13,607 bases of DNA from Chloroflexota bacterium (lineage in GTDB: Bacteria; Chloroflexota; Dehalococcoidia; Dehalococcoidales; RBG-16-60-22), in contig JACPQH010000089.1 in assembly GCA_016190585.1 (NCBI GenBank), positions 1 to 13,607 of the forward strand, read 5' to 3'. Below, in pieces: positions 3,019 through 13,517 of the stretch. Position 1 is the stretch's first letter, and each line of letters begins with the position of its first letter. The translations under genes were made by a program, and so were the position numbers. A model generated the notes under the pieces. It was not told the origin of the DNA, searched no databases, and saw only the letters and a program-made list of their open reading frames with translations.

Positions 3019-3048
3019 TTGCGCAGGCTCGGCGTCTCTTGTTACTAT
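3019..3048 (+). promoter_or_regulatory. Possible promoter of the two-component operon
   Basis: TTGCGC (3019-3024) and TACTAT (3043-3048) are 18 bp apart, followed by further TATA-rich bases up to 3057. The start codon at 3062 is only 13 bases past this -10. If one of the alternative -10 hexamers at 3046-3053 is used, the mRNA would begin at or very near the ATG. No strong Shine-Dalgarno sequence precedes that ATG. Confidence 0.3.
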
Positions 3049-3061
3049 ATAGATATAGGCA

Positions 3062-3727
3062 ATGAGAGTTCTTGTCGTTGATGACGACCCCCAGATGGTC
3101 AGTCTCCTGAAGCGCGGTCTGTCGTACGAAGGCTATACCGTGGACACCGCCGGGGAGGGTGTTGAAGCCCTGGCCAAGGCCCGGGAGCGGGAGCCGGACC
3201 TGGTCATACTGGATATCATGATGCCCGGACTCGACGGCATCGAGGTCAGCAAGCGGCTCCGGCAGGCCAGCGAGGTGCCCATCATCATGCTGACCGCCCG
3301 CGGCATGGTAAGCGACCGGGTGGCGGGGCTGGACAGCGGAGCGGATGACTACCTGGTCAAACCCTTCTCCCTCGACGAGCTGCTGGCCCGGATGAGGGCC
3401 CTGCTGCGCCGGCGCCAGCCGAAGGACGGCGAGGTGCTGCTGTTCAGCGATGTCTCCCTGAACACCGCCACCCGCGAGGTCAGGCGAGGCAACCGGAATA
3501 TCGAGCTTACCGCCCAGGAGTTCGACCTGCTCGAGCTTTTCCTGCGCCATCCCAGGCAGGTGCTTACCCGCGATACCATCTACCAGAAGGTCTGGGGATA
3601 TGATTTCGAGGGCGAATCGAACGTCATCGAGGTCTACGTCCGCTACCTCCGCGCCAAGCTGGAGACTGACGGCAGGCCGCGCCTGTTACACACCATGCGC
3701 GGCGTGGGCTATGTCCTGAGGGAGTAG
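3062..3727 (+). CDS. OmpR/PhoB-family response regulator
   Basis: This 221-residue DNA-binding response regulator has a receiver domain (about 1-115) with the acidic pocket D7/D8, phospho-acceptor D51 in [12 protein letters not shown], switch Thr78 and Lys100 (VKPFS). A winged-helix output domain follows (about 125-220), with [13 protein letters not shown], the recognition-helix region [20 protein letters not shown] and a C-terminal GVGYVLRE. This is the full normal length for the family. It is followed one base after its stop by the kinase gene, its evident partner. Its likely targets are the two 11-bp-periodic YTAA arrays at 5111-5149 and 5635-5673, a spacing typical of this family (inference). 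The stimulus is unknown. Confidence 0.95.
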
Positions 3728-3728
3728 C

Positions 3729-5114
3729 GTGTCCATTCGCTGGCGGCTGACAGCCTGGTTCTCGCTCATCCTCTTTATCATCCTGCTGATTTCCGGCGTA
3801 GTCCTCTTTACGCTGCTGCAAAACTCGCTGTATACCGAGGTCGACGCCAATCTGAAGCTGTACTCGGCCTGGGTGCACGGTACCCTTAACGCCCAAACGG
3901 CGCAGGAGCATCTCGACTACAATGTCATCCATTCCAACCTGCCGCCCATCAACGAGTTCGCTTCACCGGGCATCTACATCGAGCTGGTGGACAAGCACGG
4001 CCGGGCGGTGGTCAAATCTGACAACATGGGCGACCACGAGCTGCCCATCGACCTGTCCCTGCTCCAGCGGGGATTCAACGGCGAAGTCAGCATCGAAACG
4101 GTGTCGGCCGGGCAGGGCGCCAGCGTCCGGATGATGGTCTCGCCCATGTACCTGCCGGAGGAGACCCTGGTCCTCGAGGTGGCGCAGTCCCTGCAGCCCC
4201 TCGACGCCGCCATGAACAAGGTCGCCTGGGCGCTCCTGGCGAGCATGGCCGTGGCGCTGTGCCTCACGGCTGTCTCCGGGGCGATACTGGTGCGCCGGGC
4301 GCTCGCGCCGGTCGAGCGCATCACCGGCATCGTCAGGAGCCTGGAAGCCGGGACGGACCTGAGCAAGCGGGTCGGGTACGCCGGGCCCGCGGACGAGATC
4401 GGCCGCCTGGCGACTACTTTCGACGACATGCTGGCGCGCCTGGACAAGGTCTTCAAATCGCAAAAGGGCTTCGTGGCGGATGCCTCCCATGAGCTCCGCA
4501 GCCCGCTGGCCGTCATCCAGGGCAACCTGGACCTCCTGAAACGCCCGCTGCCCGAGCCGGAACGCCGCGAATCGCTCCAGGCCGTCGAAGCCGAGTCGGC
4601 CCGGATGGCCCGGATAGTCAATGACCTCCTGCTGCTGGCGGAGCTTGAGTCCGGCAAGATCGAGCGTAAAGGGCCGGTTTCGTTGAAGGCGGTGCTGCTG
4701 GACGAGTTCCGCCGCGCCAGCCAGATCGCAGGCGGGGTTGATGTCAGGCTGGGGCGGCAGGAAGAGCTGGCGATTTCCGCCGATATCGACCTGCTGCGGC
4801 GCATGTACGGCAACCTGGTGGACAACGCCGTCAAGTACACGCCTGAAGGCGGCGCCGTCGTCCTTTCGGCGTACCGGGACAAAGATGCCGCCTGCCTCGA
4901 GGTGAGCGACAGCGGCCCCGGCATCGCTCCGGAGCACCTGCCGCACCTGTTCGACCGGTTTTACCGCGTGGACAAAGCCCACTCGCGGGGCCGGGGCGGC
5001 ACCGGGCTGGGCCTGTCCATTGTAAAAAGCATCGCCGAGCAGTACGGCGGCCGTGTCGAAGTCGCCAGCGAGCCGGGCCAGGGCAGCACCTTCACCATAC
5101 GCTTCAATATCTAA
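3729..5114 (+). CDS. Membrane sensor histidine kinase (HAMP, HisKA, HATPase_c)
   Basis: This 461-residue sensor kinase partners the preceding regulator. Transmembrane segment 1 is about residues 8-30. An extracytoplasmic sensor region of about 130 residues follows, then transmembrane segment 2 at about 166-188 and a HAMP linker to about 240. The dimerisation/phosphotransfer helix carries the H-box ADASHELRSPLAV with phospho-acceptor H254. The ATPase domain shows the N-box NLVDNAVKYTP, the G1 box DSGPGIAPEH, the F-box LFDRFYRVD and the G2 box GGTGLGLSIV. The sensor region is unrecognised and there is no PAS domain. The GTG start at 3729 follows GAGGGAG by four bases and lies one base after the regulator stop, so translation is probably coupled. 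The stop codon overlaps the first box of the downstream regulatory array. Confidence 0.95.
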   Translation: MSIRWRLTAWFSLILFIILLISGVVLFTLLQNSLYTEVDANLKLYSAWVHGTLNAQTAQEHLDYNVIHSNLPPINEFASPGIYIELVDKHGRAVVKSDNMGDHELPIDLSLLQRGFNGEVSIETVSAGQGASVRMMVSPMYLPEETLVLEVAQSLQPLDAAMNKVAWALLASMAVALCLTAVSGAILVRRALAPVERITGIVRSLEAGTDLSKRVGYAGPADEIGRLATTFDDMLARLDKVFKSQKGFVADASHELRSPLAVIQGNLDLLKRPLPEPERRESLQAVEAESARMARIVNDLLLLAELESGKIERKGPVSLKAVLLDEFRRASQIAGGVDVRLGRQEELAISADIDLLRRMYGNLVDNAVKYTPEGGAVVLSAYRDKDAACLEVSDSGPGIAPEHLPHLFDRFYRVDKAHSRGRGGTGLGLSIVKSIAEQYGGRVEVASEPGQGSTFTIRFNI

Positions 5115-5149
5115 TCTGGTTTTAATCTGATGTTAACCCGCCCCTAAGC
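5111..5149 (+). promoter_or_regulatory. Four-box 11-bp-period operator array upstream of the PDZ gene
   Basis: Four hexamers occur at exact 11-bp intervals: CTAATC (5111), TTAATC (5122), TTAACC (5133) and CTAAGC (5144). Each pair is separated by five unrelated bases. Together they read YTAAnC. The first box overlaps the kinase stop codon, and the last ends 21 bases before the GTG of the PDZ gene. This is the geometry of PhoB and Bacillus PhoP sites, tandem hexamers once per helical turn bound by OmpR-family dimers. The adjacent response regulator is the obvious candidate binder (inference). A -10-like TAGACT (5164-5169) lies just downstream. Confidence 0.7.
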
Positions 5150-5170
5150 AACCGGTGCCAAGATAGACTG

Positions 5171-5593
5171 GTGGTGTCGTTTCTGGTCAGGCACAAAAAA
5201 ATCGTCATCCTCTCGTCTTCGCTGGTGTTTTTGTTTGCGGCGTCTTTCCTCTTCGCCCGCGCGTTCCTCTTCGACACCGAAAAGCACCCCGACGTATCCC
5301 TGACCGCCGATATCGGCCTGGTCTATATCTCGGTGTCCCCGCATATCGCGGTGTGCTATTCGCTCGACGTGGAGTACGGCGCGCTGGTCACCGCCGTGAC
5401 CCCCGGCGGGCTGGCGGACCTCGCGGGCATCGAGCCGGGGGATGTCATCCTGAGCTTTAACGGGGTAGCCGTGGGCAGCGACCCCCCCCTGTTCGGCGTT
5501 ATCAGCTCGTGTAATCCCGGCAACCTCATCTCCATCGAGGTGCTCCGGGGGGAATCCCGGCAAAGGATCGAGTTCGTACACCTGGCAAACTGA
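5171..5593 (+). CDS. Membrane-anchored single-PDZ-domain protein
   Basis: This 140-residue protein has a short basic N-terminus (VRHKK), one transmembrane helix (about 11-33) and an extracytoplasmic PDZ domain (about 60-137). The typical PDZ core is visible: YGALVTAVTPGGLADLAGIEPGD, followed by VILSFNGVAV and a closing strand ISIEVLRGE. No protease domain is attached, unlike DegP/HtrA or site-2 proteases, so a peptide-binding adaptor or sensor role is likelier than catalysis (inference). Two adjacent GTG codons (5171, 5174) are the only reasonable starts and neither has a good Shine-Dalgarno sequence. The gene follows the sensor kinase by 56 bp across the four-box array, so it is probably controlled by that system and may feed back on it. 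Confidence 0.8.
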   Translation: MVSFLVRHKKIVILSSSLVFLFAASFLFARAFLFDTEKHPDVSLTADIGLVYISVSPHIAVCYSLDVEYGALVTAVTPGGLADLAGIEPGDVILSFNGVAVGSDPPLFGVISSCNPGNLISIEVLRGESRQRIEFVHLAN

Positions 5594-5634
5594 AAAACCC
5601 TGCTCCCGGTTCTGGCGACCTCTATCCTGAAATT

Positions 5635-5673
5635 CTAATGGGAAACTAAGGCTTCCTTAATTACCGGTTAATC
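5635..5673 (+). promoter_or_regulatory. Second four-box 11-bp-period operator array, upstream of the zinc-ribbon gene
   Basis: CTAATG (5635), CTAAGG (5646), TTAATT (5657) and TTAATC (5668) recur at exact 11-bp intervals with five-base spacers, the same design and YTAA core as the array at 5111-5149. The last box ends 31 bases before the ATG at 5705. A possible -10 (TACGCT, 5683-5688) follows at a distance where an OmpR-family activator could replace the -35 contact. Two arrays of this regularity within 530 bp make chance unlikely. Binding by the response regulator at 3062-3727 is inferred. Confidence 0.7.
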
Positions 5674-5704
5674 TCGGTTGTTTACGCTGGTACCAGAAAC
5701 TGAG

Positions 5705-5878
5705 ATGATTAAACCAACCGAATTTTTCTGGACAAGCCGGTGCCCTCGCTGCGGCGGCAACACTTATGTCGACCGTGACCAGTACGGGTGGTTCCGGGAA
5801 TGCCTCCAGTGCGGTTATCTCGAGAACCGTATCGCCGAGCTGGCGGGGGCGGTTAACAGAGACCGCTTAAGGAGCTAG
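5705..5878 (+). CDS. Small zinc-ribbon protein, 57 residues
   Basis: This short protein contains two CxxC knuckles, CPRC (residues 13-16) and CLQC (33-36), separated by about 16 residues that include aromatic and charged positions (TYVDRDQYGWFREC). That is the pattern of a single zinc ribbon, and the C-terminal tail looks helical. No enzyme motif is present and I do not recognise the family. It could bind nucleic acid or protein. The ATG at 5705 is preferred. An in-frame TTG at 5678 exists, but it lies between the operator array and the expected start site and lacks a ribosome site. Even the ATG has only a weak upstream GAG. The four-box array immediately upstream suggests control by the neighbouring two-component system. 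Confidence 0.65.
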   Translation: MIKPTEFFWTSRCPRCGGNTYVDRDQYGWFRECLQCGYLENRIAELAGAVNRDRLRS

Positions 5879-10187: not shown

Positions 10188-13100
10188 CTAGGCCTTGCTG
10201 ACGTTGACCAGGAAGGCCTTGTATTCCGGAATCATGGTATTGGCGTCGCCCACGTGGGGTGTCAGCACGTTGGCGCTGTCGCCAGTAGACGAGCCGATAT
10301 AGCCCCAGTGCCACACCAGGCCGACCTGGTGAATCCTGGTGCCGTTAAGCTGGAAAGGCTTGAAGCGCTTGGTAACGACGGCCACCATGGTCACCTGGCC
10401 GCGGGCCGATTCGATTTTAACCTTGCCGCCGTTGGCGATGCCCTTCTCGGCGGCCAGCTCTTCGCTCATTTCCACGAAGGGCTCGGGCATCATCTCGTTG
10501 AGCCAGGACAGGTTCCGGGTCATGGCGCCGCTCTGCCAGTGCTCGCAGACGCGGTAGGTGGTAGCCACGATGGGGAAGCGGTCGGCCTTGCCCTGCTCTT
10601 CCGGCCGCCATATCTTGAAAGCCGGGTTGTTCTGCTGCTGCGATACTGGGTTGGCGATGGGGGATTCCCACGGCTCGTAGTGCTCCGGCAGCGGGCCGTC
10701 GGCAAGGGTGCTCGGCCCGAAGAGACGGGACAGCCCATCGGCGACCATGATAAAGGGATAGTGACCGCCCTGGTTCATCGGCTTGCCGCCGCCGTCGGGC
10801 ACGTCGCCGATCCATTTATCGTCCTTCCACATGATGGCCGGGTGCTCTTTATCAAAGGGCTGCCCGTCCAGGTCGACCGAGGCCCGGTTGTAGATGATGC
10901 GCCGGTTGACCGGCCAGCACCACGCCCAGCCGGGGAACATGCCGACGTTGAAGGCGTCCGGGGTAAGGCTGCGGCGGCTGGCGCGGTTGCCGGGGATGGG
11001 GGCGTTCGGGTCCTTGTCCGGCTCGACGTAGCTGTTGCAGTAGAGCCAGTTGCCCGAGGTGGTCGTGCCGTCATTCTTGAGATCGGCGAAGCTGTTCATC
11101 AGCTTGCCGGTAGTCAGGTCGTAGCCGTTGATTTCCTTGGCGATGAGGCGGGCGTCGGAAGGGTCGCCGTACTCCCAGGTGAGCCTGGTAATGGCGTCGG
11201 CGTTAGGGCCGCCTTCGCTGGCGTAGAGCTCTTTCAGCTTGAGGATAATCCTGGTCATCATCCAGTGGTCTTCCTCGGCGTGGCCGGGGGCGTCGGCGCA
11301 GTTGTAGCGCCACTGCATCCAGCGCCCGCTGTTGGTGACGCTGCCCTCCTTCTCAAAGGAGTTCCTGGCGGGCAGCAGGAAGACCTCGGTATTTATCCCG
11401 GCCGGGTCGACGAGGGGGCGTTTCCAGAAGGCCGCCGTCTCGGTCTCCCACATATCGGAGGCGACCATCCATTCCAGCTTATCGAGGGCCTGTCGCTCCC
11501 GGTTGGCGTTGGGGCCGCCCACCGCCGGGTTCTGCCCCCAGACCATGAGCCCCTTGATGGTGCCGGCGGCCATGGCCTCAAACAGGGCGATGTGCGAGTA
11601 GTTCTTCCCGGTTTCGATCTTGGGCAGCATGTCGAAGGCAAACTGGTTCTCCCTGGTGGCGGCATCGCCGTACCAGGCTTTCAGCAGGCTGACGATGTAC
11701 TTGGGCGTGTTCTTCCACCAGTTCAGGCTCAAGGGATCGCTGGAGACCGGCGTCGTCCGCGCGAGGTATTTCTCCAGGGTGGTATCGCCGTCGGTAAAGA
11801 CCTTGAGGTAGCCGGGCAGGATGTGGAAGAGCAGGGCGTGGTCGGTCGAGCCCTGGACATTGGACTCGCCGCGCATGGCGTTGATGCCGCCGCCGGTAAC
11901 CCCGATGTTGCCCAGCAGCATCTGCATTATCGAATAAGACCGGATGTTCTGGGCGCCGTAGGTGTGCTGGGTGGTGCCCATGGCGTAGAGTATCGTCCCG
12001 GCTTTACCTGTCTGGCCGGTGGCGGCGTAGGTGCGGCAGACCTCCAGGAAGTTATCGGCCGGCGTGCCGCAGACCCGGTTGACCATATCCGGGGTATAGC
12101 GGGCGACGTGTTTCTTGAGGATCTGGAAGACGCAGTTCGGGTCTTTCAGGGTCCGGTCCCGCCTGGGAACGCCCTTGTCGTCGACCTGGAACTGCCAGGT
12201 AGCGTTGCTGTACTTGCGCTTGGCGCCATCGGTCTCGTTGAGGCCGCCGGCGTACCCGGAGAAGAGCCCGTCGAGCTCGGTGGGGCCCTTATACTGGGGA
12301 TTGACCAGGTAGGCGGCGTTGGTGTACTCGTTGATGTAGGTCATGTTATAGCTGCCGGGGTTGCGCTCGATGTCCTCGATGATGTAGCGTATCATGCCGT
12401 TGATGAAAGCGATATCGGTGCCCGACCTTATCGGGGCGTAGATATCGGCCCTGGCTGACGTCCTGGTGAAGCGCGGGTCTACGCTGATCAGTTTGCCGCC
12501 CTTTTCTTTGGCGGCGGTGATCCAGCCGAAGGCCGCGGGGTGGTTCTCCGCCGGGTTGGCCCCTATGGCCAGTACGCAGTCGCTGTTACCGATGTCGTTC
12601 CAGTGGTTGGTCATGGCGCCGCGCCCGAAACTCTCCGCCAGACTGGCGACGGTGGGGGAATGTCATATCCGGGCGTGGTGCTCGAGATAGACCAGGCCGA
12701 GCGCCCGGGCCATCTTGGACAGGGTATAGCATTCCTCGTTGTCCAGGGCCGAGCCGCCCAGGTTGGCGATGGTCTCGCAGCGATTGACGGTGACGCCCTT
12801 GCCGTCCTTCTGGATGAAGGCGCTGTCCCGGGTGTGCTTGATGCGTTTGGCGATCTCATCGATCGCCCAGTCCCAGCTCTTCTCTTCCCAGTCGGTGCCG
12901 CCGGGGCGGCGGTAGAGGACCTTGCTGAGGCGCCGCGGGTTCGAGGCGTCAAGCTGGCGCATGGACTGCCCCTTGGCGCAGCCGGCGCCCAAATTGATGG
13001 GATGCTCGGGGTCGCCCTCGATGTTGACGACCTTGCCGTCCTGGGTAGCGACGATGAAACCGCAACCTGAACCATCGTAGGGACAGATCGTGGTCTTTTC

Positions 13101-13229
13101 GCCCAGTTGTTTCTTCAGGGGCAGGCGCGGGGACGCCGCCAGAACCTTTTCCGGTAACGCTCCCAGTAGGAAAACGCCACCCGCTCCGGCTCCCGAGGCT
13201 TTAAGGAAATCTCTTCGGCTTAGTTCCAT
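10188..13229 (-). CDS. fdhA: Selenocysteine-containing formate dehydrogenase catalytic subunit (FdnG-like), Tat-exported
   Basis: This 1013-residue molybdo/tungsto-enzyme, close in length to E. coli FdnG, oxidises formate to CO2 on the outer face of the membrane. The N-terminus has a Tat signal, SRRDFLK (4-10), a hydrophobic stretch and a likely cut near A31. The cluster motif reads C49-x2-D52-x3-C56 ... C84, with Asp where the second Cys normally stands. The in-frame TGA at 12663-12665 is residue 189, in the context HHARI-U-HSPTVASLAESFGRGAMTNHW, which aligns with the Sec of known formate dehydrogenases. The frame is continuous, so this is one gene, not two. The C-terminus (HWGYIGSS ... NVLTPHVGDAN ... 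PEYKAFLVN) matches the family. ATG 13229 has AAGGAGGAGG directly upstream. First gene of fdhABC-fdhE. Confidence 0.95.
12623..12665 (-). promoter_or_regulatory. Bacterial SECIS-like hairpin at the Sec codon of fdhA
   Basis: Counting from the U of UGA (12665) on the minus strand, CGCC (18-21), AGUCU (22-26) and GGCG (27-30) form a small hairpin. The stem can close further with A-U. In E. coli fdhF the apical loop GGUCU also occupies positions 22-26, so the spacing agrees exactly and the GU of the loop that SelB reads is kept. The lower helix is not clear. Function follows from context: Sec insertion at residue 189 by SelB and tRNA-Sec encoded elsewhere. Confidence 0.75.
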
Positions 13230-13394: not shown

Positions 13395-13517
13395 TCCGGC
13401 GGCGCGGGACGCGGCACCCTGTTTTTTTCCCGCTTTTACCGCCGGCCCCGTGCCCTATCCGGCTGGCCGGGACTTCCGGCGGGGGCAGCACCCGCTACCC
13501 GCCTGAATTTACACCGG
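13395..13517 (+). other. Non-coding stretch upstream of both divergent promoters; nothing recognised
   Basis: Between the fdh promoter and the plus-strand promoter at 13518 I find no credible gene, repeat array or clear hairpin. Short open frames cross it on both strands but have no ribosome sites or recognisable motifs. Operators for fdh may lie here, but no repeated motif stands out. Confidence 0.4.

Follow-up and report, generated by a model that had tools for sequence, protein, structure and literature searches.

Organization of the locus

The window, that is, the whole stretch of 13,607 nt of Chloroflexota DNA analysed here, encodes a response regulator and a membrane sensor histidine kinase, followed on the same strand by a PDZ gene and a zinc-ribbon gene, with one array of four YTAA boxes at the end of the kinase gene and a second ahead of the zinc-ribbon gene (Table 1). 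On the reverse strand, formate dehydrogenase-N alpha is found in two same-phase frames at 12663-13229 and 10188-12614 (10188-13229 overall), a pattern such as an in-frame TGA read as a putative selenocysteine would give, and a perfect sigma70-type consensus (TTGACA N17 TATAAT, 12/12) lies at 7785-7757.

Table 1. Coordinates of the window features and of the arrays, small RNA copies and candidate targets at other loci
Feature	Locus	Position	Strand	Basis or remark
Tentative promoter of ordinary type (TTGCGC N18 TACTAT) ahead of the regulator-kinase operon, without an array	window	3019..3048	+	read by eye
Response regulator, OmpR/PhoB family (receiver and winged helix), predicted to bind both arrays	window	3062..3727	+	Pfam Response_reg 2.4e-34, Trans_reg_C 5.4e-28
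Membrane sensor histidine kinase, HAMP, HisKA and HATPase_c	window	3729..5114	+	Pfam
Array 1, boxes CTAATC 5111, TTAATC 5122, TTAACC 5133, CTAAGC 5144	window	5111..5149	+	sequence
Predicted -10 of array 1, CAAGAT (weak; A2 and T6 present)	window	5159..5164	+	15 nt from box 4 start
PDZ protein with a membrane anchor and no protease domain, predicted array 1 target	window	5171..5593	+	Pfam PDZ_2 and PDZ_6 6.5e-11
Array 2, boxes CTAATG 5635, CTAAGG 5646, TTAATT 5657, TTAATC 5668	window	5635..5673	+	sequence
Predicted -10 of array 2, TACGCT	window	5683..5688	+	15 nt from box 4 start
57-residue zinc-ribbon protein, predicted array 2 target	window	5705..5878	+	comparable zinc ribbons follow PDZ in L137 and L152 and lie further down in L154
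Small RNA copy	L144	5296-5366
Small RNA copy	L145	5386-5456
Small RNA copies	L140	5148-5219 and 7552-7630
Small RNA copy	L201	2797-2880
Small RNA copy	L203	2882-2968
Pho-type TTAACA arrays, identical 11-bp geometry	L161, L164, L169, L173-L176
Gene without a family match	L162			candidate target
M48 peptidase	L163			candidate target
PCYCGC protein	L165			candidate target
ICMT-like	L166			candidate target
Lgt	L167			candidate target
NiFe hydrogenase small subunit	L168			candidate target
Amdase-like	L170			candidate target
Spermine-synthase-domain protein	L171			candidate target
FAD oxidoreductase	L172			candidate target, not the immediate neighbour of the array
CcmF	L147			candidate target, short frame between
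Zinc-ribbon protein	L148			candidate target
NPCBM-domain protein	L198			candidate target
DsbD-like	L204			candidate target
NPCBM-domain protein	L206			candidate target, genome without a kinase match

The regulator belongs to the OmpR/PhoB family by its receiver and Trans_reg_C domains (Pfam), and direct-repeat sites of about 11 bp, a further mark of this family, are also found here as predicted sites tied to the regulator by association. It scored below the cut-off of all 25 NCBIfam models listed of the 102 matched. The best listed was MtrA, where 241.6 bits against a cut-off of 300 did not reach equivalog assignment, followed by the heavy-metal regulators (239.4 against 279.2) and PhoB (222.8 against 296.2); MprA is the label given to many of its relatives by one source. 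In the AlphaFold2 model of the kinase (pLDDT 72.6, pTM 0.44), two long helices flank a small alpha/beta domain. A fold search returned kinase cores among the best 50 of 1281 rows, with WalK at the top, and identified no sensor domain, and no PAS domain was found in the window kinase by Pfam.

The PDZ protein matched PDZ families only in Pfam, and the NCBIfam protease models that matched it cover the PDZ part below their cut-offs, so that no HtrA protease domain was found; a search with the protein recovered itself and three weak serine-protease-Do matches. For the zinc-ribbon frame (5678-5878), Pfam matches were weak and below curated cut-offs. Translation probably starts at ATG 5705 and not at TTG 5678, since the predicted -10 of array 2 occupies 5683-5688.

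Repeat arrays in the window

The pattern scan of the window found exact (YTAA N7)x4 matches at 5111 and 5635. Chains of three boxes at 11 bp occur four times, all within these two arrays, compared with a mean of 0.01 and a maximum of 1 in 200 dinucleotide shuffles. A 55-column matrix trained on 31 arrays of other loci, with the window arrays excluded, likewise placed both at the top of the window, with scores of 41.1 at 5111(+) and 33.4 at 5635(+). The next scores (11.8, 8.0, and 7.3) are the same arrays in a shifted register or on the opposite strand; the best unrelated site reached 5.9 (at 13509), and the maximum over 10 mononucleotide shuffles was 9.9.

The sequence-only reading of this DNA had described YTAA boxes in exact 11-bp phase, each a hexamer with a five-base spacer. 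All eight positions stand, but the unit is better written as seven conserved and four free bases (tYTAAKC). Box by box, the array consensus reads tCTAATC, CTAAGS, CTAATC, and YTAAKC. The kinase stop codon (TAA, 5112-5114) falls inside box 1 of array 1, which is therefore partly coding sequence.

Neither the pattern nor the matrix scan showed an array upstream of the regulator operon in the window, in agreement with the earlier proposal that the arrays serve output and not simple autoregulation. TTGACC followed by a -10 was seen by eye at the same place upstream of the regulator in 10 of the 13 relatives printed. Where arrays do lie upstream of the regulator in relatives, those of L137 and L152 point away from it and that of L140 precedes a small RNA. 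The array of L158, however, lies on the regulator's strand, so autoregulation may hold in some relatives.

Conservation of the arrays in relatives

Genomes carrying the kinase were collected at E ≤ 1e-110 from two sets. The class of G339 contributed 12 of 393 genomes and the order of G654 contributed 13 of 156; one genome is shared, which leaves 24 kinase-bearing genomes with 47-63% identity to the window kinase. Identity ranged from 57 to 64% among the 120 kinase relatives listed, the window's own entry aside, and the organisms named among them were Chloroflexi/Chloroflexota, Dehalococcoidales or Dehalococcoidia, with one Desulfobacteraceae. The window thus probably comes from a Dehalococcoidia-like bacterium. 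A separate kinase scan of genome contigs gave at least 80 loci, the matches listed being distant kinases (28-44%).

Directly 3' of the kinase stop, at least three boxes at 11 bp were present in 14 of 24 loci (window included, incomplete L115 left out; shuffle mean 0.02) and four boxes in 8; without the window, the counts are 13/23 and 7/23. Ten loci fall short of three boxes, three having two and seven having one or none. Periods of 7-10 and 12-15 bp gave 0/24 loci in this post-kinase region, where the 10-bp period was counted, and TAA-TAA distances there peak at 11 (29 cases) and 22 (16). Box 1 overlaps the kinase stop, as in the window, in all of the three-box loci except L097 (13/14). Across orthologous loci, what had been read from one sequence as regulator sites thus keeps its phase and its place along with the flanking genes.

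A PDZ gene lies 3' of the kinase in nine relatives (L137, L139, L141, L146, L147, L151, L152, L154, and L156, the last interrupted by a contig end), with Pfam run on the PDZ proteins of the window and L147; the L142 frame in the PDZ alignment is not a PDZ protein and was excluded from the counts. At the kinase stop, two or more boxes are present in eight of these nine loci, six of which reach three or more; L146 has a single box. The second array, 3' of PDZ and before a zinc-ribbon gene, is found in the window and in L152. In L151 and, more loosely, L154, an array lies further on, with one reading frame intervening after PDZ, and in L137 a zinc ribbon follows PDZ with the second array absent.

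Distribution of arrays and candidate targets

In the 24 kinase-bearing genomes, the forward strand has 22 matches to (YTAA N7)x4 and the reverse strand 24, spread over 17 genomes, and the backward control pattern gave 1; the exact four-box match is missing from the other seven genomes. Arrays made purely of TTAA were counted on both strands because TTAA is its own complement, and the 46 strand-matches reduce to 31 places, of which 16 contain one or more CTAA boxes and 15 are pure TTAA. Six of the 16 CTAA places and one pure-TTAA place (G768) lie at the kinase. A 12-bp period gave no four-box match in these 24 genomes, and the shorter pattern YTAA N7 CTAAGS N5 YTAA gave 22 matches in 15 of them (control 2).

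For comparison, 60 genomes without a kinase match were taken by handle order from the 143 of the order of G654. Twelve of them carry four-box arrays, all pure TTAA except at two places. CTAA-containing arrays therefore number 16 in the kinase-bearing genomes (47.4 Mb) and 2 in the kinase-negative ones (83.6 Mb, both totals being sums of rounded sizes). This is a density about 14 times higher with the kinase gene, or about 9 times when the six kinase-linked sites are removed. The two sets are unmatched, since the wider class is the source of about half of the kinase-bearing genomes, and incomplete assemblies may mimic kinase absence. The outcome favours the sequence-only reading of a regulon.

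Candidate targets were assigned by position relative to the array (Table 1). Kinase-bearing genomes supply 13 targets away from the kinase locus. An envelope role is clear for four of these (M48, Lgt, DsbD-like, and CcmF), and the Amdase-like, spermine-synthase-domain, and FAD oxidoreductase targets do not fit such a role. In G410, a three-box array lies upstream of a DsbD-like gene and none at the kinase.

A sister Pho system in the same genomes

The arrays could be genuine sites of another OmpR-family regulator, such as a Pho regulator, and not of the neighbour. The same genomes do carry arrays of the TTAACA type with identical 11-bp geometry. At the seven such loci examined, these adjoin genes for pstS-like binding proteins (4), LMW phosphatases (3), and PAS-bearing kinases (2 scanned); the gene scanned by the array of L173 is MGS-like. 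The kinase-linked array of G768 is also pure TTAA. However, the box letters differ, CTAATC/CTAAGC in the window's type against TTAACA, and so do the recognition segments. In the window's regulator family the segment is SNVIEVYxRYLRxKLE, unchanged in 21 of 24 relatives and with single departures in L141, L142, and L157, whereas the Pho paralogs read TRTVDVHxRWLRxKIE and differ from it in 4/4. Box letters and recognition segment thus change together between the two regulators. Further, CTAA arrays track the kinase gene whereas pure-TTAA arrays also occur without it, and 14 of 24 loci carry their array at the kinase stop codon. The window system itself is without the marks of a phosphate regulon, as its kinase is without PAS, the targets scanned are not phosphate genes, and the Pho arrays are separate. 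A different binder is therefore considered unlikely, and the neighbouring regulator is most likely the one that binds the arrays.

Promoter geometry

The position of a -10 element was counted over 33 strand-defined arrays with exact boxes 1 and 4, using A2 and T6 (xAxxxT) as the criterion and keeping three doubtful arrays (L142 5929, L168 2528, and L173 2821). An xAxxxT hexamer begins 15 nt from the start of box 4 in 24 of these 33, against 2.8 expected from composition, a count that includes the arrays in which the spacing was first noticed by eye. The runner-up distance, 22, has 9 arrays, and the highest count at any distance over 2000 shuffles was 12. A -10-like hexamer at a fixed distance marks the arrays as promoters. 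Hexamers at 15 nt include TATACT, TATCAT, TACAAT, and CACCAT, and the -35 at a 17-nt spacer is poor, with at most 3/6 matches in 32 of 33 arrays. Pho-type arrays have their -10 at 15 nt in 7 of 9. Both window arrays keep this spacing and sit in promoter position, which bears out the earlier suggestion that they are placed to control the PDZ and zinc-ribbon genes. In another member of the family, tandem dimers bind with one subunit per 7-bp motif, the spacer is strictly 4 bp, and binding is tighter with three or four motifs (in part, PMC4832192).

Alternatively, the main function of the arrays might be repression, or the switching of read-through from the regulator operon into the PDZ gene. This would fit the stable hairpin that overlaps the -10 region in four of the 13 relatives folded (z of -3.8 in L093, -5.9 in L095, -2.2 in L110, and -3.5 in L113), accompanied in the first three by a T run and possibly a terminator of kinase read-through. 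However, z lies above -2 in the other nine relatives and no hairpin was seen after array 1 in the window (z 0.45), the fixed 15-nt distance combined with a poor -35 fits activation, and arrays also precede genes distant from the operon, so that repression or switching as the main function is unlikely. A terminator overlapping the promoter was also considered as a general feature and was dropped, z being below -2 in just 4/13 loci.

Chance A/T-rich periodicity beside a stop codon, for which the TAA within box 1 and the frequent CTC-TAA endings of the family might speak, can practically be dismissed, given 0.01 expected three-box chains, 0/24 loci with other periods, and the conservation across relatives of boxes 2-4, which are beyond the end of the kinase gene. 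We conclude that the arrays are genuine promoter elements, conserved and in helical phase.

A small RNA with a C-rich loop

In G339, G496, and G535, the kinase-end array leads to an RNA of about 70 nt and not to a PDZ gene, and likewise by upstream sequence in G515, which is outside the kinase matches of G339's class. The RNA (copies in Table 1) consists of a stem-loop with AGGNNACCCCCC followed by an intrinsic terminator, and folding z for six array-linked copies ranges from -4.0 to -6.9. Across nine aligned copies, the loop is invariant and the stems vary. An RNA model, R1, built from these nine copies and covering nine base pairs of the first stem but not the terminator, gave 29 matches, including the nine building sequences, in 7 of 294 genomes, with up to 8 per genome. 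At least two exact 11-bp boxes lie upstream of 16 of the 29 by a lax criterion without a control; among the others, two have degenerate boxes by eye (L226 and L235), seven have no boxes, and in four the motif was not located. A sigma70-like promoter is present at three of those others. Copies with a sigma70-like promoter (TTGACA, then an ATAAT-like -10) were found at L158 9493-9566, L159 3349-3422, and L160 5563-5636. At each of these, a match of the c-di-GMP-II riboswitch type lies within about 200 bases 3' of the RNA copy.

Where box 4 of an RNA-linked array reads CCAA, the -10 starts at 26 nt (15 + 11) in 11/11, a spacing seen by eye with the CCAA anchor chosen afterwards; a strict script gave five arrays, two of them at 26. 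No Rfam match at gathering score covered the small RNA in the eight loci searched. Neither Rfam nor R1 matched the window, and the RNA is for this reason not claimed there. A C-rich-loop RNA, sX13, has reportedly been described from Xanthomonas.

Comparison with known systems

In mycobacterial MprAB-PepD, the gene order is regulator, kinase, and PDZ-containing gene, and the window has the same succession of a regulator-kinase pair and a PDZ-containing gene. The window differs in that its PDZ protein is without a protease domain, its array has four boxes in strict 11-bp phase, and its regulator promoter is without an array, and in its lineage, MprAB-PepD being actinobacterial. In Corynebacterium glutamicum, MprA has the motif TKTTAAGAAM and the target htrA (in part, PMC12113857).

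The PHO box consists of two 11-nucleotide direct repeats of seven well conserved and four less conserved positions (in part, PMC4415409), and the window arrays share this layout of 7 + 4. Their letters, however, are YTAAKC and not TTAACA, the targets found are not phosphate genes, and a separate Pho system coexists in several of the same genomes. Cpx controls DegP, HtpX, and DsbA and includes the small RNA CpxQ (in part, PMC6737893). Some array targets are of a similar kind and one lineage also has a small RNA, but most targets differ, and the array-linked RNA is multicopy with its own array promoter whereas CpxQ derives from the 3' end of cpxP mRNA.

A direct-repeat promoter of the OmpR/PhoB type is thus of a known kind. 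The literature searched, which was mainly open-access, gave no earlier description of such a regulon in this group, of its box letters, or of the RNA branch.

Proposed circuit

From the arrays, their conservation, the promoter geometry, and the linkage, all of which are sequence-based, we infer the binder, activation, the signal, and the function. Upon stimulation, the kinase would phosphorylate the regulator, which would bind an array head-to-tail with one subunit per 11-bp repeat, so that two tandem dimers would occupy each array. The bound regulator would substitute for the -35 element and recruit polymerase to the -10, whose first base lies 15 nt from the start of the last YTAA box. Array 1 would in this way turn on the PDZ gene and array 2 the zinc-ribbon gene, with the regulator operon itself transcribed from its ordinary promoter.

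The PDZ gene, together with the M48, Lgt, DsbD-like, and CcmF targets, leads to the proposal of a function like that of Cpx or MprAB, in which the circuit would most likely serve quality control of envelope proteins. We consider it highly probable that the adjacent MprA/PhoB-type regulator uses the arrays as activator sites and as promoter upstream regions, from which it would drive the PDZ and zinc-ribbon genes in such a response.

A broader proposal is offered tentatively, as a possibility: an undescribed Dehalococcoidia-like envelope-stress circuit in which one regulator would recognise a four-turn code (CTAATC-CTAAGS-CTAATC-YTAAKC) and thereby switch on PDZ, zinc-ribbon, and envelope genes from a -10 at 15 or 26 nt. 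One lineage would add multicopy small RNAs whose AGGNNACCCCCC loop could pair with ribosome-binding sites, and the sister Pho system would be set apart by box letters alone. This proposal is given less weight because a clear envelope role was found for four of the 13 targets.

The arrays may thus be part of an uncharacterised cell-envelope control circuit in uncultured bacteria, a lineage that would gain a regulator with a readable, predicted binding code. The promoter rule of array, 15 nt, and -10 can be scanned for in any genome of the lineage, with candidate targets that include a small-RNA family. Sister regulators with equal geometry but different letters within one genome would further offer a natural specificity test for the OmpR/PhoB family.
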